DNA from: Phreatobacter stygius
GTDB taxonomy: Bacteria; Pseudomonadota; Alphaproteobacteria; Rhizobiales; Phreatobacteraceae
Length of the DNA stretch: 64,000 nucleotides
Reading direction: 5' to 3'
Assembly: GCF_005144885.1 (NCBI RefSeq)
Contig: NZ_CP039690.1
Coordinates: 1,736,001 to 1,800,000 of the forward strand
Part shown: piece by piece, positions 53,724 through 64,000 of the stretch
Layout of the letters: the number at the start of each line of letters is the position of its first letter
Numbering within the stretch: the stretch's first letter is position 1
Position numbers and translations under genes: made by a program
Notes under the pieces: model-generated
What the model saw: the letters and a program-made list of their open reading frames with translations, nothing else
Told to the model about the DNA's origin: nothing
Databases searched by the model: none

Positions 53724-55247
53724 ATGAAAAAGCTCACCAGATGGACTGCCGCGGCACTGCTGCTCGCCGCCTCGATGACCGCTGCCGGCGCCCGGCCGAC
53801 AACCCTGCGCATCGGCCTGGCCGAAGACCCCGACGTGCTCGACCCGACGCTCGGCCGCACCTATGTCGGGCGCATCGTCTTCGCCTCGATCTGCGACAAG
53901 CTGTTCGACATCGACGACAAGCTGCAGGTCGTGCCGCAGCTGGCCCTGTCGCACGAGACCGCCGAGGATGGGCTCTCGATGCTCATCAAGCTGCGTCCGA
54001 ACGTCAAATTCCACGACGGCGAGCCGATGGATGCCGAAGCGGTCAAGTTCTCGATCGAGCGGCATATGACCATGCAGGGCTCGTTCCGCCGGCCGGAGCT
54101 CGCCTCCGTCGACAAGGTCGAGGTGGTCGATCCGCTGACCGTCCGGCTGGTGCTGAAGCAGCCGTTCTCGCCGCTGTTGTCGCAGCTCACCGACCGCGCC
54201 GGCATGATGGTCAGCCCCAAGGCCGCGCGTGAGGCCGGCGAGCGCTTCGGCACCAGGCCGGTCTGTGCCGGTCCCTACCGCCTGGTCGAGCGGGTCCAGC
54301 AGGACCGCATCGTGGTCGAGCGTTTCGCCGACTACTGGAACAAGGACCAGATCACCATCGACCGGATCGAATACCGGCCGATCAATGATTCGACCGTCCG
54401 CCTCGCCAATCTGCGCGCCGGTTCGCTCGATCTGATCGAGCGGGCGCTGGCCACCGACGTCGCCGAGATCCGCGCCAATCCGCGGCTCAGGCTGTCGACC
54501 GCCATCGACCTCGGCTACCAGGGCGTGACGCTCAACACCGGCAAGAGCGACGCGGCCAAGACCGCCTTCGGCCAGGACCCACGCGTCATGCAGGCCTTCT
54601 CGCTGGCGATCGACCGGGTGGCGATCAACCAGGTCGTGTTCAACGGCGGCGCTGCGCCCGGCAACCAGTGGATCAACCCCCAGCACCCCTATTACCAGAG
54701 CCGCTTCCCGGTTGCCGCGCGCGACATCGAGCGGGCCAAGCGCCTGTTGCGCGAGGCCGGCGTGCGTACGCCAGTGACCGTCGATTTCATGGTGCCGAAC
54801 AATCCGGAGGTTCGCCAGGTCGCCGAGGTGCTGCAGGCGATGACCGCCGAGGCCGGCTTCGACCTGAAGATCCGCGTCACCGAATTCGCCACCTCGCTGC
54901 AGGAGGCCGAACAGGGCCGCTACCAGGCCTATATGCTGAACTGGTCCGGGCGGACCGATCCCGACGGCAACCTGTTCATCTTCCACGGCTGCAATCAGCC
55001 GCAGAACTATGGCGGCTACTGCAATCGCGAGGTCGACGCCTTGATGCAGGAGGCACGCGCCAAGTCCGATCTTGCCGCCCGCAAGGCGATCTACGAGCGG
55101 GTTGCCGAGCGGCTGATGACCGAAGGATCGATCGTCTATCTCTACCATCGCCCCGTCATCATCGCCCATACCGTGAGGCTGGAAGGCTATCGCCCGATGC
55201 CCGACGGCCTGGTGCGCGTCATCGGCCTGAAACTCAGGCCGAACTGA
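53724..55247 (+). CDS. Peptide/nickel-type ABC substrate-binding protein (SBP family 5)
   Basis: This 507-residue periplasmic receptor has a signal peptide (MKKLTRWTAAALLLAASMTA, cleavage after AGA near residue 23). Family 5 motifs are RIGLAEDPDVLDPTLGRTY after it, KLRPNVKFHDGEPMDAEAVK near residue 90 and CAGPYRLVERVQQDRIVVER near residue 182. The late segment FHGCNQPQNYGGYCNREVDA (two cysteines) is reminiscent of receptors for glutathione-like or dipeptide ligands. With the GGT-like enzyme upstream, a gamma-glutamyl peptide or conjugate is a plausible ligand, but this is inference. Confidence 0.93.
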   Translation: MKKLTRWTAAALLLAASMTAAGARPTTLRIGLAEDPDVLDPTLGRTYVGRIVFASICDKLFDIDDKLQVVPQLALSHETAEDGLSMLIKLRPNVKFHDGEPMDAEAVKFSIERHMTMQGSFRRPELASVDKVEVVDPLTVRLVLKQPFSPLLSQLTDRAGMMVSPKAAREAGERFGTRPVCAGPYRLVERVQQDRIVVERFADYWNKDQITIDRIEYRPINDSTVRLANLRAGSLDLIERALATDVAEIRANPRLRLSTAIDLGYQGVTLNTGKSDAAKTAFGQDPRVMQAFSLAIDRVAINQVVFNGGAAPGNQWINPQHPYYQSRFPVAARDIERAKRLLREAGVRTPVTVDFMVPNNPEVRQVAEVLQAMTAEAGFDLKIRVTEFATSLQEAEQGRYQAYMLNWSGRTDPDGNLFIFHGCNQPQNYGGYCNREVDALMQEARAKSDLAARKAIYERVAERLMTEGSIVYLYHRPVIIAHTVRLEGYRPMPDGLVRVIGLKLRPN

Positions 55248-55260
55248 CGGGCCCCGCACC

Positions 55261-56202
55261 ATGCTGACGCTCATCGGCAAGCGGATCCTTCAGCTGATCC
55301 CGACCCTGTTCTTCGTCTCGGTGATCATTTTCCTGCTGCAGCAATTGCTGCCCGGCGACCCGGCTCTGGTGATGGCGGGCGAGGAGAAGGATCCGCTGGT
55401 GATCGAACAGATCCGCCAGCGCTACCGGCTCGACCAGCCGCTGCCGATCCAATATCTCGCCTGGATCGGCGGCGTGTTCTCCGGCGATCTCGGCGAAAGC
55501 ATGCGGCTGAAGGAACCGGTCCTGCGCCTGGTCGCGCAGAAACTGCCGGTCACCGTGCAGCTGGCGGTCATGGCCATGCTGTTCACGCTGGCCATCGGCA
55601 TTCCGGCCGGCATCGTCTCGGCGGTCAAGAAGAACACGGTGTGGGACTACGCGGTCAATGTCATCGCGCTCTGGGGCATCTCGACGCCGAATTTCTGGCT
55701 CGGCATCATGATGATCTTCCTGTTCTCGGTGCAGCTCGGCTGGCTGCCGGCTTCCGGTTATGTCTCGCCCTTCGAGGATTTCTGGGGCTCGATGGCGGCG
55801 ACCGTCATGCCGGCCTTCGTGCTCGGCAACTCCTTTGCCGGCGTGCTGATGCGCCACACCCGGGCGGCCATGCTGCAGGCGCTGGAGAGCGACTATGTCC
55901 GCACCGCCCGCGCCAAGGGGCTCGCCGAGGAGCGGGTGATCCTGAAACATGCGCTGCGCAACGCGCTGACCCCGATCATCACGCTCGGCGCGCTCGAATT
56001 CGGCACGCTCCTGTCGGGCGCGGTGCTGACCGAGCAGATCTTCTCGGTGCCGGGCTTCGGCAAGCTGATCGTCGATGCCGTGTTCAACCGCGACTATGCC
56101 GTCGTCCAGGGCGTCGTGCTGGTCACCGCCACCACCTATATCGTGCTTAATCTCCTGGCCGATATCGGTTACATCTTCGCCAACCCGCGGCTGAGGAGCT
56201 GA
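55261..56202 (+). CDS. Dipeptide/oligopeptide ABC importer permease (DppB family)
   Basis: This 313-residue permease has six helices. It begins LTLIGKRILQLIPTLFFVSV and shows LLPGDPALVMAG near residue 30, typical of DppB/GsiC. The EAA loop that contacts the ATPases is in ESDYVRTARAKGLAEERVIL near residue 210. Position between the receptor and the DppC gene matches the usual operon order. It forms half of the channel. Confidence 0.95.
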   Translation: MLTLIGKRILQLIPTLFFVSVIIFLLQQLLPGDPALVMAGEEKDPLVIEQIRQRYRLDQPLPIQYLAWIGGVFSGDLGESMRLKEPVLRLVAQKLPVTVQLAVMAMLFTLAIGIPAGIVSAVKKNTVWDYAVNVIALWGISTPNFWLGIMMIFLFSVQLGWLPASGYVSPFEDFWGSMAATVMPAFVLGNSFAGVLMRHTRAAMLQALESDYVRTARAKGLAEERVILKHALRNALTPIITLGALEFGTLLSGAVLTEQIFSVPGFGKLIVDAVFNRDYAVVQGVVLVTATTYIVLNLLADIGYIFANPRLRS

Positions 56203-56205
56203 ACC

Positions 56206-57090
56206 ATGGCGTCAAGCCAAGGCGTTCTCGCAGCCATTGCCGCGGCCGAGGTCGAAAGCCCGGCACGCCGCGCCTGGCGCCGGCTGAAAGCCCGCAAGGG
56301 CGCCATGGTGGCGCTCGGCGTGCTCGTGCTGATCATCGTGATGGCGGTTTTTGCACCCTATCTCACGCCCCACGACCCGATCCAGCAGAGCTGGCGGGCG
56401 GTGCGCCAGGCGCCGTCGGCAGCCCATTGGTTCGGCTCCGACGAGGTCGGCCGCGACATCTTCGCGCGTGTCGTCTTTGGCGCCCGCGCCTCGCTTGCCG
56501 CCGGCGTCGTCTCGGTCGCCATCGCGATCCTGGCCGGCGTACCGCTCGGCCTCGCCGCCGGCTATATCGGCGGCTGGACCGACGGGCTGATCTCGCGCTT
56601 CACCGATGCCATGCTGGCCTGTCCGTTCCTGATCCTGGCCATTGCGCTGGCGGCCTTTCTGGGGCCCTCGCTGCAGAACGCCATGATCGCCATCGGCATT
56701 ACCGCAACGCCGGTCTTCGTGCGGCTGACCCGCGGCCAGGTGCTGGCGGTCAAGACCGAGGACTATATCGAGGCGGCGCGCGCGGTGGGCAACCCGCGCT
56801 GGCGCATCGCCGTGCGCCACATCCTGCCGAACATCCTGCCGCAATTGCTGGTCCAGGCGACGCTGACGGTCGCCACCGCCATCATCGCCGAGGCCTCGTT
56901 GTCCTTCCTCGGGCTCGGCCAGCAGCCGCCGACCCCGTCCTGGGGCTCGATGCTGAACTCGGCCCAGCGTTTCCTCACCCAGGCGCCGTGGATGGCGATC
57001 TATCCGGGGCTCGCCATCTTCGTCACCGTGCTGAGCTTCAACCTGCTCGGCGACGGCCTGCGCGATGCGCTCGATCCGAAGGCGAAATAG
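56206..57090 (+). CDS. Dipeptide/oligopeptide ABC importer permease (DppC family)
   Basis: This 294-residue permease has six helices with a cytosolic N-terminal tail. Features: HDPIQQSWRAVRQAPSAAHW then FGSDEVGRDIFARVVFGARA, which is the DppC signature, and the EAA loop in YIEAARAVGNPRWRIAVRHI near residue 186, followed by PNILPQLLVQATLTVATAII. It starts three bases after the DppB stop. It ends at 57090, only six bases from the convergent tungstate receptor gene. Confidence 0.95.
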   Translation: MASSQGVLAAIAAAEVESPARRAWRRLKARKGAMVALGVLVLIIVMAVFAPYLTPHDPIQQSWRAVRQAPSAAHWFGSDEVGRDIFARVVFGARASLAAGVVSVAIAILAGVPLGLAAGYIGGWTDGLISRFTDAMLACPFLILAIALAAFLGPSLQNAMIAIGITATPVFVRLTRGQVLAVKTEDYIEAARAVGNPRWRIAVRHILPNILPQLLVQATLTVATAIIAEASLSFLGLGQQPPTPSWGSMLNSAQRFLTQAPWMAIYPGLAIFVTVLSFNLLGDGLRDALDPKAK

Positions 57091-57096
57091 CCAGCC

Positions 57097-57936
57097 TCAA
57101 GCGCCGGCATCGCCGGCGTTCGGAAAGAACAGCTGCTGTCCCTCGATCTTGTAGTCGGCGATCGCCTTCTGCCCCTCGGGCCCCAGCACCCAGTCGATGA
57201 AGGCCTGGCCGTCGGCGGCCTTCACATGTGGATGGCGCTGCGGGTTGACCAGCATGATGCCATATTGGTTGAACAGCCGGCGGTCGCCTTCGACGACGAT
57301 CGTGAGGTCGCCGCGGTTCTTGAACGACAGCCAGGTGCCGCGATCGGTCAGCACGTAACCGTTCATCGCGGAAGCCGTGTTGAGCGCCGCGCCCATGCCC
57401 TGGCCGATCTCGCGATACCAGGCCCCCCGCGCGGCCGCGAGGTCGATGCTCGCTGCCGTCCACAAGGCCAGTTCCGCCTGGTGGGTGCCGGAACGGTCGC
57501 CGCGCGACACGAAAGGCAGGGCCTTGGTCTGGATGGCGCGCAGCGCCGCGGCAATGTCGCGCGTGCCGCGCACGCCGGCCGGATCGGCCTTCGGTCCGAC
57601 CAGCACGAAATCGTTATACATGACCGGCCGGCGCGGTCCGCCGAAACCGTCGGCGACAAACTTGTCCTCGGCCGCCCGGGCATGGACGAAGACCACGTCG
57701 GCATCGCCGCGCCGGCCGGTGTCGAGCGCCTGGCCGGTGCCTTGCGAGATCACCCTGACCTCGATGCCGGTCTTCGCCTTGAACCGCGGCAGGAGGTGGT
57801 TGAACAGGCCCGAGTCGACCGTCGAGGTGGTCGAGGCGACCGTGACGAGGCGTGGCGGCGCCGCCTGGCCGACGGCGGCGCCGGCGAGCACGACGGCAGC
57901 GCCGAGACCGAGGAGAAGACGACGGGTCGTGATCAT
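57097..57936 (-). CDS. tupA: Tungstate ABC importer substrate-binding protein
   Basis: This 279-residue periplasmic oxyanion receptor has a signal peptide (MITTRRLLLGLGAAVVLAGA, cleavage after GQA near residue 25). The mature start VTVASTTSTVDSGLFNHLLP carries the TTSTxxSGL motif typical of TupA tungstate receptors rather than ModA. DADVVFVHARAAEDKFVADG and PFVSRGDRSGTHQAELALW follow. The ATG at 57936 is behind AAGGAGCC. It is the last gene of a minus-strand operon (permease, ATPase, receptor), and the local genes encode molybdopterin enzymes, both supporting W or Mo uptake. Confidence 0.92.
   Translation of the reverse strand: MITTRRLLLGLGAAVVLAGAAVGQAAPPRLVTVASTTSTVDSGLFNHLLPRFKAKTGIEVRVISQGTGQALDTGRRGDADVVFVHARAAEDKFVADGFGGPRRPVMYNDFVLVGPKADPAGVRGTRDIAAALRAIQTKALPFVSRGDRSGTHQAELALWTAASIDLAAARGAWYREIGQGMGAALNTASAMNGYVLTDRGTWLSFKNRGDLTIVVEGDRRLFNQYGIMLVNPQRHPHVKAADGQAFIDWVLGPEGQKAIADYKIEGQQLFFPNAGDAGA
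57102..57118. terminator. Hairpin at the dppC/tupA convergence
   Basis: CGCCGGC-atc-GCCGGCG is a perfect seven-base stem that lies inside the last codons of tupA and just after the dppC stop (57090). With only six bases between the two genes, it is the only candidate for a shared bidirectional terminator. Confidence 0.45.
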
Positions 57937-57962
57937 GGACGGCTCCTTGAAGCAGGGTGTGG

Positions 57963-58694
57963 TCACCACAAGAGTTCTCCGGCGATGAAGGCCCGGGCCT
58001 CCGGGGTCGACGGCGAGGCGAAGAAGGCGTCGGCCGGGCCCTGTTCGATGAGGCGGCCACGATGAAAGAACAGCACGCGATGGGCGAGCCGGCGGGCCTG
58101 ACCGAGATCATGGGTCGCCATGACCAGGGTGACGCCTTCGGCGGCAAGGGTCTCGAGCATCGCTTCGATCTGCCTGACCGCGCCGGGATCGAGCTGCGAC
58201 GACGGCTCGTCGAGAAACATGAGCTCCGGCTTCAGGGCCCAGGCCCGCGCAATGGCGAGCCGCTGCTGCTCGCCGCCCGACAGGAGCCGCGCCGGCCGGG
58301 TCGCCAGGGCAGCCAGGCCGAACCGCTCCATGGCTTGGCGCGCCAGGTCCTGGCGGGTCCGCCGGGCGACGCCGCCGGCGGCCAGGGCATGGACGATATT
58401 GGCCTCCGCCGAGCGGCGCAGCATGACCGGCTTCTGGAACACCATGGCGTGGCGCTTGGCGCTGCCGTGCCGGGCATTGGCGGGATGGGCCCAGGCGACA
58501 CGGCCGGCGCTGGGTTCCAGCAGGCCGTGGCAGAGCCGGAGCGTCAGCGACTTGCCGGAGCCGTTCGGCCCGAGGATCGCGGTGATGCCGCCGCGCGGGA
58601 CGGTGAAGCCGACATCGGCGACGAGCTGTTTGCCGCCGGCCTCGAAACCCAGGCCCTCGACCGTCAGCGGCAGGATCGACACGGTGTCACGCAT
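57963..58694 (-). CDS. tupC: Tungstate ABC importer ATPase
   Basis: This 243-residue ATPase has Walker A ILGPNGSGKSLTLRL (near residue 40), Q-loop AMVFQKPVMLRRSAEANI, signature LSGGEQQRLAIARAWA (near residue 138) and Walker B PELMFLDEPSSQLD, then THDLGQARRLAHRV. The short VFQKPVMLRRS region is characteristic of the TupC/CysA-type oxyanion importers. The gene lies between the permease and the receptor genes on the minus strand, spaced five and 26 bases from them. Confidence 0.92.
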   Translation of the reverse strand: MRDTVSILPLTVEGLGFEAGGKQLVADVGFTVPRGGITAILGPNGSGKSLTLRLCHGLLEPSAGRVAWAHPANARHGSAKRHAMVFQKPVMLRRSAEANIVHALAAGGVARRTRQDLARQAMERFGLAALATRPARLLSGGEQQRLAIARAWALKPELMFLDEPSSQLDPGAVRQIEAMLETLAAEGVTLVMATHDLGQARRLAHRVLFFHRGRLIEQGPADAFFASPSTPEARAFIAGELLW

Positions 58695-58699
58695 GGCCG

Positions 58700-59401
58700 T
58701 CACCCCGCATAACGCGCGCCGATACGGCTCGCGCCATAGGTCACCGCATTGATGGCGAGCGTCAGCCCGATCAGCACGATGCCGAGCCCGAGCGCCAGGG
58801 GCAGATCGCCTTTCGAGGTCTCCAGTGCGATCGCGGTCGTCATGGTGCGGGTGTAGCCGGCGATATTGCCGCCGACGATCAGCACGGCGCCGACCTCGGC
58901 GCTGGCCCGGCCGAAGCCGGCCAGCAGCGCGGTGGCAAGCGCGAAGCGGCCGTCCCACAGGAGCGTCGGAATGGCCCGCCAGCCGGTCATGCCGACGGAG
59001 GCGAGATGTTCGCGATATTCGCCCTGCAGGTCCTCGACGATCTGGCGGGTGATCGCCAGGATGATCGGCAGCACCAGGAGCGCCTGGGCCGCAACCATGG
59101 CGGCCGGCGAGAACAACAGCCCGAGGGGGCCGAGCGGGCCTGACCTGGACAGGATCAGGAAGATCATCAGGCCAGCGACCACCGGCGGCAGGCCCATCAG
59201 CGCGTTGACCACGACGATCACCAGCGACCGGCCGGGGAAGCGCGCCAGCGCCAGCATGGCGCCAAGCGGCAGGCCAATGACCGCCGCGACCAGCACGGCC
59301 GTCAGGGTCACGGTCAGCGACAGGCGCACGATGGCGAGGAAACCCGGATCGAGCCCGAGGATCAGGCCAAAGGCTGCGGCGAAGGCGGTGCTGACGTCCA
59401 A
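58700..59401 (-). CDS. tupB: Tungstate ABC importer permease
   Basis: This 233-residue permease has five to six helices and the TupB pattern SLTVTLTAVLVAAVIGLPLG near residue 28, MGLPPVVAGLMIFLILSRSG near residue 69, and the EAA-like loop LASVGMTGWRAIPTLLWDGR near residue 133. The apparent start is TTG at 59401, with GGAGG ten bases upstream; no ATG lies before the first helix. It is the first gene of the tupBCA operon and is divergent from the HTH-PBP regulator, sharing a 104-base spacer. Confidence 0.92.
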   Translation of the reverse strand: MDVSTAFAAAFGLILGLDPGFLAIVRLSLTVTLTAVLVAAVIGLPLGAMLALARFPGRSLVIVVVNALMGLPPVVAGLMIFLILSRSGPLGPLGLLFSPAAMVAAQALLVLPIILAITRQIVEDLQGEYREHLASVGMTGWRAIPTLLWDGRFALATALLAGFGRASAEVGAVLIVGGNIAGYTRTMTTAIALETSKGDLPLALGLGIVLIGLTLAINAVTYGASRIGARYAG

Positions 59402-59486
59402 GGGCGGCGTTCCTCCGGCTTCAAGATCCTGTTCTTTGTTGCATTGGTTATGGATCCGCCCGTATGATTTTCAACAATGGAATTCC

Positions 59487-59517
59487 TGCATGAGAACGCA
59501 GCTCTATGCATGAGAAC
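59487..59517 (+). promoter_or_regulatory. 11-base direct repeat at the regulator start codon
   Basis: TGCATGAGAAC occurs at 59487-59497 and 59507-59517. The starts are exactly 20 bases apart, and the second copy includes the ATG of the HTH-PBP gene. Two turns of DNA between copies suits a dimeric repressor. It could be the autoregulatory site and could also act on tupB. Confidence 0.5.
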
Positions 59518-60396
59518 ACCTATCTGACAACCGATGAAGCGGCGGCCTATCTCAAGCTCAAGGGGCGCAAGCTCTACGACCTCGTCGCCCAGGGCGCCGT
59601 GCCTTGCACCAAGGTGACCGGCAAATGGCTGTTTCCGCGCGCCGCCCTCGACCGTTGGCTGGCCGCCGGCCTTGCCCGTCCGGCCGGTTTCGTCGCGGAA
59701 CCGCCGCCGCCGATCGTCGGTGGCAGCCACGACCCCTTGCTCGAATGGGCGATGCGCCAGTCCGGCTCGGGGCTTGCCTTGCTGGCCGAGGGTTCGGAAA
59801 CAGGCCTCGACCGCCTGGAGCGCAATGAGGTGGCCGCCGCCGCCATCCACCTGCACGGCGCCACCGACGACGACGGCGCCAATATCACCGGTGTCGCGGC
59901 GCGCTCCGGCCTGAACGATGCCGTCGTCATCGGTTTTGCCCGGCGCGAGCAGGGCCTGGTCGTCGCGCCAGGCAATCCCCTGAAGCTCGAAGACCTCGCT
60001 GGCGCGGTCAGGGCCGGCGCACGTTTCGCCTTGCGCCAGACCGGCGCCGGCGCGCAATTGCTGCTCGCCGCCATGCTCGACCGGCTGTCGGTGCCGCCGG
60101 AGAGCCTGAACAGCGCAGCCGCCCCTTACCCGACCGGCGTCGACCTGGCGCTCGCCATTCGCTCGGGCGAGGCCGATTGCGGCATCGCGACATCGGCGGT
60201 GGCCGCCACCCACGGCCTCGGCTTCCTGCCGGTCGTCTGGGAGCGCTTCGATCTCGTGCTGCGCCGGCGGAGCTATTTCGAGCCCGGGCCGCAAAAGCTG
60301 CTGGCTTTCCTGCGCCGGCCGGACTTCGTGCGTCGCGCCGCCGATTTCGGCGGTTATGATGTCAGTGAGGCCGGCCAGGTCCGGCTCAACATGTGA
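59506..60396 (+). CDS. HTH (excisionase-type) plus periplasmic-binding-protein-like domain regulator, probable W/Mo sensor
   Basis: This 296-residue protein has an N-terminal MerR/excisionase-like DNA-binding domain: YLTTDEAAAYLKLKGRKLYD then VPCTKVTGKWLFPRAALDRW (residues 6-50). Residues about 70-290 form a PBP-like domain: IVGGSHDPLLEWAMRQSGSG at its start, GAGAQLLLAAMLDRLSVPPE in the middle and SGEADCGIATSAVAATHGLG later. The same kind of domain is fused to MoeA two genes downstream. Proteins with this layout are found beside molybdate/tungstate transporters and probably bind the oxyanion or molybdopterin. It is divergent from tupBCA and leads the operon. Confidence 0.88.
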   Translation: MHENTYLTTDEAAAYLKLKGRKLYDLVAQGAVPCTKVTGKWLFPRAALDRWLAAGLARPAGFVAEPPPPIVGGSHDPLLEWAMRQSGSGLALLAEGSETGLDRLERNEVAAAAIHLHGATDDDGANITGVAARSGLNDAVVIGFARREQGLVVAPGNPLKLEDLAGAVRAGARFALRQTGAGAQLLLAAMLDRLSVPPESLNSAAAPYPTGVDLALAIRSGEADCGIATSAVAATHGLGFLPVVWERFDLVLRRRSYFEPGPQKLLAFLRRPDFVRRAADFGGYDVSEAGQVRLNM

Positions 60397-60407
60397 AGCC
60401 GCCGCCG

Positions 60408-61463
60408 ATGTCCGAGCCGCCTCGCCTCACGCCGGTCGCCGATGCGCTGGAGCCGCTGCTGGCCGGCTCGAAGCCGCTCGACCAGGCCCGGATCGCAATC
60501 GCCGACGCGCTCGGGCTCATTGCCGCCGAACCGGCGCGGACCTCCGGGCCGGTCCCGCCACTGGCCGTCGCCTTGCGCGACGGCATTGCGGTCGCCTCGG
60601 CCGATATCGTCGGCGCCACCCCTTATGCCCCGGTCATCCTGACCGACATGCCGCCGGCGGTTCGCAGCGGCGCGACACTGCCACCGGCAACCGATGCGGT
60701 CATCCCCGCAGCGGCGGCGATCCCGGCCGGTCGCCTGGTCGAAATCGGCCAGGCCGCTTATCCGGGCGAGCAGGTCGCCACGGCCGGATCCGATCTCGCC
60801 GGCGATATCCAGATCCTCGGGCGCGGCGACCTGGTCACGCCGGAGCTGCGGCTGGCGCTGGCGACGGCCGGCATGACCGATATCGCCGTTCTCCGGGCAA
60901 GCTTCGCCATGACGCCCGGCGGCGATCCGGTGGTCCGCGACTGGCTCGCCGCGCGCCTCCGGGCGCTTGGCCTGACCGAAACCGGCGAGCCGGAGGCCGG
61001 ACTGATCGCGAGCTTCGGCGAAAGCGCCGGCGCCTTCGCCAATCGCGCGCCGATGCCGGTCGCGCGCGGCCTGGCCTTGCGCCCGGGCGACAATGCCGGC
61101 ACGGCCATGGCATCTGACGGCAGGCCGGTCATCCTCCTGCCCGAGCGCTTCGACGGCGCGATCGCGGCTTTCTACGCCTTGATCCTGCCCGTCGTCGCAC
61201 GCCTGACCGCCCGGCGGGTCAACACGCACACCTTGCCGCTCGGCGCCAAGATCGCCTCGACGATCGGCTGCACCGATGTCGCATTGCTGCACGTCGTCGA
61301 TGGGCGTTATGAACCCCTCATCGTCGGCGCGGTCACGCTGCAGGCCCTGCTCAGGGCCGATGCGGTCGCGCTGATCCCACCGGAGAGCGAGGGCGCTGCC
61401 GCCGGCACGCCGCTCGCCGCCATCCCGATCGGCAACCCGCTGATGCCCGAACCGAGCTCATGA
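60408..61463 (+). CDS. Degenerate MoeA-like molybdopterin protein
   Basis: This 351-residue protein aligns by eye with MoeA along its whole length but has lost key motifs. VALRDGIAVASADIVG matches the DGFALHAGDV region. SFGESAGAF replaces the SGGTSKGAG loop, and RGLALRPGDNAGTAMASDGR then PVILLPERFDGAIAAFYALI replaces the HGVALKPGKP...PGFPTSA region, so the phosphate- and metal-handling loops are altered. It may be a non-catalytic partner of the intact MoeA fusion, whose gene overlaps its stop (ATGA). A GTG at 60393 overlapping the previous stop is an alternative start. Confidence 0.8.
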   Translation: MSEPPRLTPVADALEPLLAGSKPLDQARIAIADALGLIAAEPARTSGPVPPLAVALRDGIAVASADIVGATPYAPVILTDMPPAVRSGATLPPATDAVIPAAAAIPAGRLVEIGQAAYPGEQVATAGSDLAGDIQILGRGDLVTPELRLALATAGMTDIAVLRASFAMTPGGDPVVRDWLAARLRALGLTETGEPEAGLIASFGESAGAFANRAPMPVARGLALRPGDNAGTAMASDGRPVILLPERFDGAIAAFYALILPVVARLTARRVNTHTLPLGAKIASTIGCTDVALLHVVDGRYEPLIVGAVTLQALLRADAVALIPPESEGAAAGTPLAAIPIGNPLMPEPSS

Positions 61464-63406
61464 CCGAACGCTCAAGCCTCGACCAGGATCAGTTCCTCAC
61501 CGTGCTGACGCGCGAGGAAGCCGTCAGCCGCTTCCGCGCGGCGCTGGCGCCAAAGCCGCTCGGGTCCGAGCTGGTGCCGCTCGATCGCCTGGTCGGCCGG
61601 GTGCTGGCCACCGACATCGCCGCGCCGGTCGATACGCCGCCCTTCGACCGCTCGGTGGTCGACGGCTTCGCCCTCCATGCCGGCGATGTCGCAACCGCCT
61701 CCGACACCGCGCCGTCCGTCCTGGCGCTCAATGGCGAGGTGATCGCCTGCGGCTTTCAGCCGAAGCTCGCGGTCCGGCCCGGCACGGCCACGCCGATCGC
61801 CACCGGCGGGCCGGTCCCGCGCGGTGCCGATGCCGTCGTCATGATCGAACAGACCGACATCGCGGCCGACGGCCGGCTGGTGGTCAAACGCGCGCTGGCG
61901 CCCGGCCAGAACATCGCCTTTGCAGGGTCCGACATCGCCCGCGGCGAAACGCTTCTGCGCCGTGGCACCACGGTCGGCGCCCGTGAGATCGGCATGTTGG
62001 CGGCCGTCGGCCTCGTCGAGGCCCAGGTCTGGCTGAAGCCGCGGGTCGCGGTGATCTCCACCGGCGACGAGCTGGTCGCCCCCGGCGAGCCGCTGCGCCC
62101 CGCCGCGATCTATGATTCCAACGGCGCCATCGTTGCCGCCGCGCTGGAGGAAAACGGCTGCGAGCCGGTGCGTTTCGGCGCCATTGCCGACGATGCCGTC
62201 CGGCTCGAGGCGGCGATGCGCGAGGCCCATGCGACATGCGACGCGGTGATCCTGTCGGGCGGCACGTCGAAGGGCGCCGGCGACCTGACCTACCGCATCG
62301 TCGGCGCGCTCGGGAGCCCCGGCATCGTTGCCCATGGCGTCGCCCTGAAACCCGGCAAGCCGCTCTGCCTCGCCGTTGCCGACGGCAAGCCGGTGGTGAT
62401 CCTGCCGGGCTTCCCGACCTCGGCCATGTTCACCTTCCACGACATCGTGGTGCCGGTGCTCAGGATCCTGGCCGGCCAACCGGAGCGCCAGGACGTCCAG
62501 CTCACCGCGCGCGTGCCGGTGCGCGTGCCCTCCGACCTCGGCCGCACCGAATTCGTCATGGTGGCGCTGTCGGCAAGTCCGGACGGTCCGGTGGCCTACC
62601 CGATCGGCAAGGGCTCAGGCTCGGTCACCGCCTTCTCCCAGGCCGACGGTTTCGTCACCATCGATGCGCTGGCCGAAGCCATGCCGGCCGAGACGGTGAC
62701 GCCGGTGACCCTGTTCACGCCGCATCTGCATGTGCCGGACCTGGTCATCATGGGCAGCCATTGCGTTGGCCTCGACGCGGTCATCGGCCGCCTGGTCGAC
62801 CACGGCTTGAGCGCCCGGTCGCTGGCGCTCGGCAGCCTCGGCGGCCTCTCGGCGCTGCGCCGGGGCGAATGCGATCTCGCTCCGATCCACCTGTTCGATC
62901 CGAAGACCGGCCTCTACAACCGGCCGTTTCTCGGCCCCGATATGAGTTTGATCGCTGGCTGGCGGCGCATGCAGGGCATCGTCCACGCCAGGACCGATAC
63001 GCGCTTTGCCGGCATCACCGACGCCAAGGCCGCGGTGGACAAGGCGCTTGCCGATCCCGATTGCCTGATGGTCAACCGCAACCAGGGCGCCGGCACGCGC
63101 ATCCTGATCGACCAGTTGCTCGAAGGACGGAAGCCACCTGGTTATTGGAACCAGCCGCGCTCGCACAACGCGGTGGCCGCGAGCGTCGCCCAGGGCCGCG
63201 CCGACTGGGGCGTGGCGATCCGCCCGGTGGCCGAGGCCAACGATCTCGGCTTCATCCCGCTCGCCGAGGAGCATTACGATTTCGCCGTCGCCGCCGAACC
63301 CGCCAAGGCGGCGGCGATCGAGGCTTTCCGCGCCGCGATCGTCGAGGCGAGAGACGCGCTCGAAGCCCTTGGCTTCGCGCCGGCCGACCGGGAACCGCAG
63401 ACATGA
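61460..63406 (+). CDS. MoeA fused to a C-terminal PBP-like domain (molybdopterin metal insertion)
   Basis: This 648-residue protein has an intact MoeA part (residues 1-410): FDRSVVDGFALHAGDV near residue 70, VISTGDELVAPGEPLRPAAI near residue 197, ILSGGTSKGAGDLTYRI near residue 265 and HGVALKPGKPLCLAVADGKP near residue 294, then PGFPTSAMFTFHD. MoeA inserts molybdate or tungstate into adenylylated molybdopterin. Residues about 430-640 are a PBP-like domain (VIMGSHCVGLDAVIGRLVDH, NRNQGAGTRILIDQLLEGRK, VAQGRADWGVAIRPVAEAND), which probably binds the oxyanion or cofactor. With tupBCA nearby, a tungsten-cofactor variant of MoeA is likely. Confidence 0.92.
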   Translation: MTERSSLDQDQFLTVLTREEAVSRFRAALAPKPLGSELVPLDRLVGRVLATDIAAPVDTPPFDRSVVDGFALHAGDVATASDTAPSVLALNGEVIACGFQPKLAVRPGTATPIATGGPVPRGADAVVMIEQTDIAADGRLVVKRALAPGQNIAFAGSDIARGETLLRRGTTVGAREIGMLAAVGLVEAQVWLKPRVAVISTGDELVAPGEPLRPAAIYDSNGAIVAAALEENGCEPVRFGAIADDAVRLEAAMREAHATCDAVILSGGTSKGAGDLTYRIVGALGSPGIVAHGVALKPGKPLCLAVADGKPVVILPGFPTSAMFTFHDIVVPVLRILAGQPERQDVQLTARVPVRVPSDLGRTEFVMVALSASPDGPVAYPIGKGSGSVTAFSQADGFVTIDALAEAMPAETVTPVTLFTPHLHVPDLVIMGSHCVGLDAVIGRLVDHGLSARSLALGSLGGLSALRRGECDLAPIHLFDPKTGLYNRPFLGPDMSLIAGWRRMQGIVHARTDTRFAGITDAKAAVDKALADPDCLMVNRNQGAGTRILIDQLLEGRKPPGYWNQPRSHNAVAASVAQGRADWGVAIRPVAEANDLGFIPLAEEHYDFAVAAEPAKAAAIEAFRAAIVEARDALEALGFAPADREPQT

Positions 63407-64000
63407 CCGATGCGACGCTCGACATCTCCGGCACTTTTCTGGTGCCCAAGGGCAAGCTGACCGCCGCCGTCACCTGGCTCGGCATGGCGAAAGCGCCGGA
63501 GCCTGCGGCGTCGCCCGGCCCGCTGCGGCTCAACCGGATCGCGGCGCCGGATCTCGCCTGGTACCGCGCCCTGTTCCGCCGGGTTGGCGAGGACTGGCTC
63601 TGGACCTCCCGCCTGATCCTGTCCGACGCGGCGCTGGCCGACATCCTCGGCAATCCGCGGGTCGAGGTCTATACGATCGAGCGCGACGGCGCCGAGATCG
63701 GCATGGTCGAGCTGGATCTCAGGGTCGAAGCCGAGGTCGAGATCGTCTATTTCGGCCTGGCCCGGGAGGCCGTCGGCCAGGGCCTCGGCCGCATGGCCAT
63801 GGCGAGCGCCCTGCAGGTGGCCTGGCGGCCCGGCATCACCAAGGTCTGGCTGCACACCTGTTCGCACGACCATCCCGGCGCGCTCAAATTCTACCGGAGC
63901 TGCGGCTTCGTGCCCTATGCCACCGGTATCGAGATCTTCGACGATCCGCGGCTCGCCGGCCTGCTGCCGCGCTCGGCCGCAGCGCATATTCCGCTTATCG
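63403..64000 (+). CDS. GNAT-family N-acetyltransferase, runs off the window
   Basis: The frame is open from ATG 63403 (overlapping the MoeA-fusion stop, ATGA) to the end of the window, 199 codons. The GNAT core is visible: YTIERDGAEIGMVELDLRVE, then YFGLAREAVGQGLGRMAMAS with the acetyl-CoA loop (GQGLGRMA), and HDHPGALKFYRSCGFVPYAT. Target of acetylation is unknown; its coupling to the MoeA genes is noteworthy because a GNAT is not a usual part of cofactor synthesis. The C-terminus is missing only by the window edge. Confidence 0.88.
   Translation, partial: MTDATLDISGTFLVPKGKLTAAVTWLGMAKAPEPAASPGPLRLNRIAAPDLAWYRALFRRVGEDWLWTSRLILSDAALADILGNPRVEVYTIERDGAEIGMVELDLRVEAEVEIVYFGLAREAVGQGLGRMAMASALQVAWRPGITKVWLHTCSHDHPGALKFYRSCGFVPYATGIEIFDDPRLAGLLPRSAAAHIPLI

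Follow-up and report, generated by a model that had tools for sequence, protein, structure and literature searches.

A probable tungsten acquisition and insertion locus of Phreatobacter stygius pairs a MoeA-PBP fusion with a conserved pseudo-MoeA

How do cells choose tungsten over the near-identical molybdenum, and why should two or three MoeA genes be kept for the purpose? These questions are raised by a locus at the end of the window, a stretch of 64,000 nucleotides of the Phreatobacter stygius genome (RefSeq assembly GCF_005144885.1, contig NZ_CP039690.1, forward-strand positions 1,736,001 to 1,800,000; the genome is one contig of 7.35 Mb). Here the transporter genes tupBCA diverge from genes for a regulator with a helix-turn-helix (HTH) and a periplasmic binding protein (PBP)-like domain (HTH-PBP), a degenerate MoeA (dMoeA), a MoeA fused to a PBP-like domain (MoeA-PBP) and a GNAT acetyltransferase. 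The locus separates the parts of the problem, since a putative sensor and an enzyme have one ion-binding domain in common and a conserved, apparently dead MoeA stands between them. We consider the locus to be a module that acquires tungsten and inserts it into the cofactor, with formate dehydrogenase (FDH) as its most likely client and dMoeA as a non-catalytic partner, and put the probability of this reading at about 55%. All seven genes were found in the arrangement proposed by the initial annotation, which had been made from the DNA letters:

57097 to 57969, minus strand: tupA, tungstate-type substrate-binding protein; the start is possibly an internal ATG (MITTRR)
57963 to 58697, minus strand: tupC, ABC ATPase (ABC_tran 98.5 bits), named from its gene order with tupA and tupB
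58700 to 59401, minus strand: tupB, ABC permease (NF038017 239.5 bits, cut-off 100)
59402 to 59505, no strand: divergent intergenic region between tupB and HTH-PBP, a candidate operator, partly conserved in 9 own-genus rows
59506 to 60396, plus strand: HTH-PBP regulator with TaoR-type architecture (HTH_17 48.6 bits; PBP_like PF12727 155.6 bits)
60393 to 61463, plus strand: dMoeA, MoeA-fold pseudoenzyme (MoeA_N 53.4 bits; no MoCF_biosynth match)
61460 to 63406, plus strand: MoeA-PBP fusion of the PRK14498 family (NF011068 741.5 bits, cut-off 534)
62801 to 63337, plus strand: PBP_like domain of MoeA-PBP, residues 448-626 (PF12727 149.6 bits)
63403 to 64000, plus strand: GNAT acetyltransferase, an accessory gene (Acetyltransf_1 50.5 bits), whose stop lies a few bases past the window end

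The active site of MoeA is formed by domain II of one subunit and domains III and IV of the other. We compared the two MoeA-like proteins at 13 positions, numbered as in Escherichia coli MoeA. D59, T100, R137, D142, E188, D228, K279, R350 and S371 appear as mutants in titles of Protein Data Bank (PDB) entries; D259, K275, P298 and P301, as well as the domain boundaries, are where we take them to be. The MoeA-PBP alignment had 36 rows (37 picked, L053 and L083 removed as too short, the window protein added; L066, L067 and L076 had no MoeA-PBP frame under the selection rule). The dMoeA alignment had 37 rows (39 picked, L074, L082 and L083 dropped as other MoeA, the window protein added), of which L037 and L054 come from one genome, and overlong frames were trimmed to their last 376 residues. 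MoeA-PBP belongs with PRK14498, as it scores over the NF011068 cut-off and keeps its active-site residues: 10 of the 13 positions (D59, T100, D142, E188, D228, D259, K279, P298, P301 and S371) are identical to E. coli MoeA in all 36 rows, and R137, K275 and R350 are replaced in all of them.

In dMoeA, only MoeA_N scored over its cut-off, while MoCF_biosynth (PF00994) was unmatched and MoeA_C reached just 15 bits, which bears out the label 'degenerate' that the gene had been given. The AlphaFold2 (AF2) model of the protein (pLDDT 93.9) has a MoeA fold, with MoeA 1uz5 as the best match (E 2.5e-27). Thus, of the features of a catalytic MoeA, the fold is present, but the MoCF_biosynth match and E188, K279, T100 and S371 are missing. 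Among the 37 rows, E188 and T100 were kept in none, K279 and S371 in one each and D228 in 4; retention was higher for P301 (17), R137 (23), D259 (24), D59 (27), P298 (28) and D142 (32). Outside the own genus (26 rows), D59 was kept in 23, R137 in 21, D142 in 21, D259 in 23 and P298 in 24, and the 11 own-genus rows have D142 throughout and P301 in none. Averaged over the columns conserved in active MoeA, retention was 0.65 in domain I, 0.58 in domain II, 0.43 in domain III and 0.37 in domain IV, suggesting a mild trend in favour of domains I and II. Four further dMoeA sequences from plasmids lack E188, T100, K279 and S371 without exception; all four keep D59 and D259, three D142 and two R137. 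Residues conserved specifically in dMoeA include, in the window protein, L283 and K286 in domain IV and E333 and G334 near the C terminus.

The pairing of dMoeA with MoeA-PBP is nearly constant. A dMoeA query had matches in 71 of 297 genomes of the order (E 1e-5), the weak ones including ordinary MoeA, and dMoeA lay immediately upstream of MoeA-PBP at 30 of the 30 loci first fetched, the window being one of them. Using wider stretches and otherwise unexplained PF12727 frames of at least 600 residues, we counted at least 44 MoeA-PBP genes in 43 genomes; 43 of the 44 adjoin a gene of the dMoeA family, some being cut by contig ends. The sole exception among those found is a divergent second MoeA-PBP in genome G282, with no dMoeA match within 1.1 kb upstream; this copy (contig C203; L164, 1083-2909) is 45% identical to that of the window. 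Across the phylum, a MoeA-PBP survey at E 1e-100 returned 11 of 299 genomes, all of the same order. The genes tupB, HTH-PBP, dMoeA and MoeA-PBP are consecutive in 10 of 12 own-genus genomes; of the other two, G227 is cut at a contig end and G065 has the pair far from tup. Outside the genus, tupA is frequently ahead of dMoeA.

Named plasmids of three genera, Methylobacterium, Microvirga and Sinorhizobium, also carry the pair. In Methylobacterium radiotolerans, one plasmid carries tupBCA, dMoeA, MoeA-PBP, fdh, mobB and a MoeA annotated glp; this plasmid, pNYY1_1 (L172), is typed as mobilizable and has selB about 5.6 kb from tupA. That of Microvirga terrae carries dMoeA, MoeA-PBP, mobB, glp, mobA, fdhD and tup genes, along with a substrate-binding protein weakly like HTH-PBP (37% over 94 residues). 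In Sinorhizobium meliloti LMB1, a regulator 56% like HTH-PBP diverges from tupBCA-dMoeA-MoeA-PBP.

The operon reading needed some adjustment. Four-base overlaps, proposed between the genes, hold for dMoeA/MoeA-PBP and MoeA-PBP/GNAT; between HTH-PBP and dMoeA there is one only if dMoeA starts at the GTG at 60393, as the ATG at 60408 would give a short gap. The GNAT gene, listed as an operon member, did not prove to be conserved: it is next to MoeA-PBP in 3 of 12 genus genomes, namely the own genome, G279 and G065, and we rejected it as a core member.

We then turned to the metal. In a survey of the 297 genomes, MeFDH1-type FDH was called by bit score and aldehyde ferredoxin oxidoreductase (AOR) by an AFOR_C match, with p values that carry no correction for shared ancestry. 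One or the other was found in 121 of 143 tupA genomes and in 4 of the 154 others (p 3e-54); the enzymes that track tupA in this way presumably all hold tungsten. Among the matches listed, 41 of 43 genomes with the dMoeA/MoeA-PBP pair had tupA, compared with 102 of 254 others (p 1e-12), which lends weight to the tungsten link that had been suggested and, with it, to the proposed co-occurrence with tup genes and tungsten enzymes. For the same pairs, again among the matches listed, the association with MeFDH1-type FDH alone was weak (22 of 43 vs 82 of 254, p 0.024), that with either enzyme was clearer (29 of 43 vs 96 of 254, p 4e-4), and no enrichment with AFOR_C was seen in the 297 genomes (7 of 43 vs 43 of 254, p 1.0). 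In six of the seven AFOR_C pair genomes, AFOR_C and the pair are on one contig. AOR was rejected as the user enzyme in the own genus, as AFOR_C was in 0 of 12 genomes. The pair genomes with neither MeFDH1-type FDH nor AFOR_C number 14, including 10 of the 12 genus genomes.

Among solved structures, the tungsten enzyme of Methylorubrum extorquens (7e5z/7vw6, 1768 bits) is the best match to one FDH alpha subunit encoded in the own genome. In addition, all 12 genus genomes have an FDH3-type FDH, called by similar score, and in 7 of them it lies no more than about 10 kb from tupA; in the own genome its beta subunit scores 335 bits (cut-off 240), and its alpha subunit has FdhA 9vap as best match.

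The transporter itself scored 236 bits with NF041772 for TupA (cut-off 400) and 153.8 bits with NF041773 for TupB (cut-off 320), so that it is the motif and the context that justify the name 'tup'. The tungstate site of TupA comprises H59, R118 and T124 and a TTTS motif, according to the accessible part of PMC5517513. The equivalents in the window protein, H96, R156 and T162, are kept in 24 of 24 aligned TupA sequences. The motif threonines T47 and T48 are likewise present in 24 of 24 and the last serine in 21 of 24; 21 of 24 begin the motif with S, giving STTS in place of TTTS, as in the window.

Similar residues recur in the regulator and the fusion. HTH-PBP has the architecture of the TaoR family, an excisionase-type HTH (HTH_17, PF12728; TIGR01764 45.8 bits, cut-off 28.8) joined to PBP_like, as well as the family's association with tungstate transport, its gene being divergent from tupB. 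Rajeev et al. (2019) described TaoR, with this architecture, as regulator of a tungstoenzyme, as relayed in the available portions of PMC11980592 and PMC10102598. Fold matches of the AF2 model of HTH-PBP (pLDDT 88.5) include LysR effector domains and 3muq, which is TupA-like. In the own genome PF12727 has three matches over cut-off, two of them in the window, scoring about 155 bits, and a third of 41 bits. The PBP domains of HTH-PBP and MoeA-PBP matched each other with an hhalign probability of 99.7 (E 5e-26), in accord with the earlier proposal that one ligand-binding fold serves both as sensor and as enzyme domain; profile matches of either domain to TupA were weak (probability 46-50). On alignment, H115/H477, R177/R540 and A183/T546 (HTH-PBP/MoeA-PBP) fall on H96, R156 and T162 of the window TupA. 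The H59 and R118 equivalents are invariant in 21 of 21 HTH-PBP rows (24 picked, 4 dropped as the fusion gene itself, the window protein added) and in 36 of 36 MoeA-PBP rows, so that oxyanion features, whose absence was to have told against the proposal, are present in both pockets. T546, the T124 equivalent, is kept in MoeA-PBP in 36 of 36. Other conserved positions of the two domains differ: N539, R547, H569 and W583 in the fusion, and N157, P158 and T210 in HTH-PBP. We infer tungstate to be the common ligand; for a metal-free cofactor, the other ligand that had been suggested, the results gave no support, nor did they speak against it.

Genes taken as stand-alone PF12727 genes occupied 107 places among the matches listed, one of which turned out to be a fusion. 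Of the remaining 106 places, 68 were no more than 6 kb from tupA, and the other 38 were farther away or on another contig. Upstream of the HTH-PBP gene, the 9 own-genus rows have GGAAT...TGCA elements in common. Of 18 regions upstream of HTH-PBP genes, 6 contain the sequence TGCATAGGAA, four of the six being near-identical; this sequence and the GGAAT...TGCA elements were noted at L055, L056, L067, L068, L085 and L086, in two families, the shared elements being weak. At the further loci picked, HTH-PBP and tupA are tail to tail in 36 of 40, and the operator regions are therefore not comparable across them.

A third MoeA, with MobB, probably belongs to the pathway and had been overlooked in the initial annotation. 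Plain MoeA (MoeA1) could be extracted from 19 of 41 stretches, and it has R and A at the positions of K282 and S303 in 19 of 19, the own-genome copy being R/A as well. Phan and Kim (2026), in the part of their paper available, tied this pattern to tungsten preference and reported MoeA1 and MobB to be essential for MeFDH1 in M. extorquens. In the own genome, FDH, mobB, MoeA1 and mobA are together at 6.14-6.15 Mb, about 4.35 Mb from the window (1.74-1.80 Mb); in this cluster (L105, 6064-14233; G000:C1, about 6.144-6.152 Mb), the FDH has an FDH3-type beta subunit. In many relatives, MoeA1-MobB is in the same island as tup and the pair, and mobB-moeA1 adjoins tup together with mobA (L055) or an FdhD-like gene (L059, 137 bits; cut-off 140.9). 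Directly past the 3' end of tupA, at 53724-57090 of the window, is a cluster of peptide-type ABC transporter genes, named by eye, in the place where L055 and L059 carry mobA or FdhD and moeA1; perhaps this cluster is the scar of an island split.

Taken together, a pathway of the following kind would account for the locus. TupBCA would import tungstate, and HTH-PBP, a TaoR-type protein, would sense the oxyanion in the cytoplasm and control the two promoters of the divergent genes. MoeA-PBP may use its PBP domain to take up intracellular tungstate and hand it to a MoeA active site. With its fold kept and essential catalytic residues gone, dMoeA would pair with MoeA-PBP and tune or hold the dimer, and MoeA1 with MobB would act as a third enzyme in the same pathway. 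Where tungstate is plentiful, MoeA1-MobB would be enough for FDH; under tungstate shortage or molybdate excess, the pair may matter.

A number of results weigh against this pathway. Domain III of dMoeA retains D259 in 24, P298 in 28 and P301 in 17 of 37 rows, and T100, in domain II, is gone from all 37, so that residue loss in dMoeA is partial and does not divide neatly by domain; own-genus dMoeA keeps D59 in only 4 and R137 in only 2 of 11. HTH-PBP mostly has no threonine equivalent to T124 (A in 16, T in 3, S in 2), and MoeA-PBP retains the canonical K282 and S303 in 36 of 36, whereas the R/A of MoeA1 is tungsten-type. FDHs other than FDH1 are treated as molybdenum enzymes in the accessible text of Phan and Kim (2026), and the FDH3-type enzyme may be one of them. 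In M. extorquens, where moeA3 is likely MoeA-PBP and moeA5 dMoeA by gene order, deletion of moeA3 or moeA5 left 41±4 or 40±2 of 50±4 U/mg MeFDH1 at 30 µM tungstate, a loss of about 20% (Phan and Kim, 2026, from the same text). Finally, E. coli, which is free of the module, makes active MeFDH1, at 4-14 U/mg compared with 80-100 U/mg in the native host, and did so once tungstate uptake worked (PMC13396061, as far as its text is accessible); E. coli's own MoeA can therefore do the job at low yield. A need for the pair at scarce tungsten or excess molybdenum would reconcile the near-silent deletions at 30 µM with wide conservation.

The deletion results also fit another explanation, which we regard as unlikely: that MoeA-PBP and dMoeA are an intracellular tungstate buffer or scavenger feeding MoeA1-MobB, and not an insertase. 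At 30 µM tungstate, MoeA1 and MobB are essential for M. extorquens MeFDH1 and moeA3 and moeA5 are dispensable (Phan and Kim, 2026, in the available part), MoeA1 has tungsten-type pocket residues in 19 of 19, and excess tungstate would mask a high-affinity scavenger. A mere buffer, however, would not need the 10 of 13 E. coli-like catalytic positions found in 36 of 36 MoeA-PBP. Moreover, in Desulfovibrio, a plain MoeA and a MoeA-PBP, with a cofitness of 0.85, were both inferred from mutant fitness to be required for AOR to have its tungsten cofactor (Trotter et al., 2023; PMC10102598, in the portion available). Could dMoeA instead be a functionless relic that is decaying within the operon? Its evolution is fast (67% identity between the window and L054, compared with 89% for MoeA-PBP), further residues are lost in the own genus, and deletion of the likely orthologue moeA5 was nearly silent in the accessible data of Phan and Kim (2026). 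Yet the ratio of nonsynonymous to synonymous substitution rates (dN/dS) was 0.22-0.46 in 11 of 11 dMoeA pairs, some with shared sequence, and 0.10-0.14 in 10 MoeA-PBP pairs, and judging from these values dMoeA appears to be constrained, if more loosely than MoeA-PBP; pseudogene decay is held unlikely for this reason. The dMoeA rows also form one branch with a support of 100/100 (the program flags long branches, whose meeting also makes the position of the root in the MoeA tree uncertain), dMoeA adjoins 43 of the 44 MoeA-PBP genes found, its complete MoeA fold is predicted confidently, and it has conserved residues of its own such as L283, K286, E333 and G334. We therefore find a relic quite improbable.

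Other alternatives concern the ligand. A pterin or other small molecule might be bound by both PBP domains in place of an oxyanion, given that HTH-PBP and the fusion diverge at other conserved positions, that the T124 equivalent is mostly absent from HTH-PBP, that the nearest solved folds of HTH-PBP are mainly LysR effector domains and that the profile match to TupA is weak (probability 46-50). The invariant R118 and H59 equivalents in both sets, the proximity of stand-alone PF12727 genes to tupA (6 kb or less at 68 of 106 places among the matches listed), and the description of TaoR as a tungstoenzyme regulator in the available part of PMC11980592 make this very unlikely. It is still harder to believe that the system serves molybdenum and not tungsten. 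TupA and TupB do fall under their NCBIfam cut-offs, MoeA-PBP has the canonical K282/S303, and 10 of the 12 genomes of the genus lack both MeFDH1-type FDH and AFOR_C and may hold molybdenum in their FDH3-type enzyme; against this, tupA tracks MeFDH1-type FDH and AFOR_C across the order, the equivalents of TupA H59, R118 and T124 are kept in 24 of 24, and the own FDH1 matches the solved tungsten enzyme 7e5z/7vw6.

Within the tungsten module reading, it is plausible from the alignments and gene order that dMoeA is a partner subunit of a heterodimer: the near-constant adjacency fits this, and the residue pattern gives mixed support. We also entertain, as a doubtful extension, that MoeA-PBP and pseudo-MoeA form an obligate heterodimer in Hyphomicrobiales, in which dMoeA, itself no longer able to insert metal, would lend domain II (D59, R137 and D142, outside the own genus) to the site of its partner, leaving a single working half-site fed by the PBP domain. 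Expression would then be set by the same ion, bound to the corresponding ligand domain of the TaoR-type protein. If so, this would be a pseudoenzyme-controlled metal insertase. Tungsten formate dehydrogenases reduce CO2, and their maturation factors are thus of practical interest.

Parts of this system are already published, namely the sensor architecture of TaoR and the MoeA-PBP fusion with its TupA link. As in the TaoR family, so far as its descriptions are accessible, HTH-PBP combines HTH_17 with a PBP-like domain and has a tie to tungsten enzymes; it differs in placement, its gene pointing away from tupB and sharing an operon with the MoeA pair. The order moeA5-moeA3-mobB-moeA1 with tupBCA in M. 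extorquens, taken from the available part of Phan and Kim (2026), matches the dMoeA-MoeA-PBP-mobB-MoeA1 of Microvirga terrae, and L072, L073 and L084 have dMoeA, MoeA-PBP, a gap and plain MoeA as in the M. extorquens order. There mobB-moeA1 is next to the pair, while in the window genome it is about 4.35 Mb off; in that part of the paper, moeA5 is not presented as a pseudoenzyme, nor moeA3 as a PBP fusion. Desulfovibrio vulgaris, in the portion of PMC10102598 available, has one MoeA with PF12727 and one without (DVU0951/DVU2990), as in the window, but the two tags are non-adjacent, unlike the pair described here.

In the literature covered, in which subscription journals are thinly represented, we found no description of dMoeA as a pseudoenzyme that is conserved and acts as a partner. 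We tried and rejected its identification as Glp (NF045515 57 bits, cut-off 475). Glp, a repurposed MoeA of Actinobacteria, resembles dMoeA, as far as its accessible description goes, in combining the MoeA fold with an active site of low conservation; unlike dMoeA, it is tied to cell division. The closest comparison for the fusion is the archaeal-type MoeA1 (PRK14498), for which Megrian et al. (2025), in the part available, described a groove running from the PBP domain, which sits on domain IV, to the active site, and co-occurrence with TupA in 86% of cases, with a shared locus in 28%. The window has the same fusion, family model and TupA link. In archaea, however, both MoeA copies are reported in that text to have a conserved active site, whereas here the neighbour of the fusion is a pseudo-MoeA, and it is this conserved, paired pseudo-MoeA that looks new.

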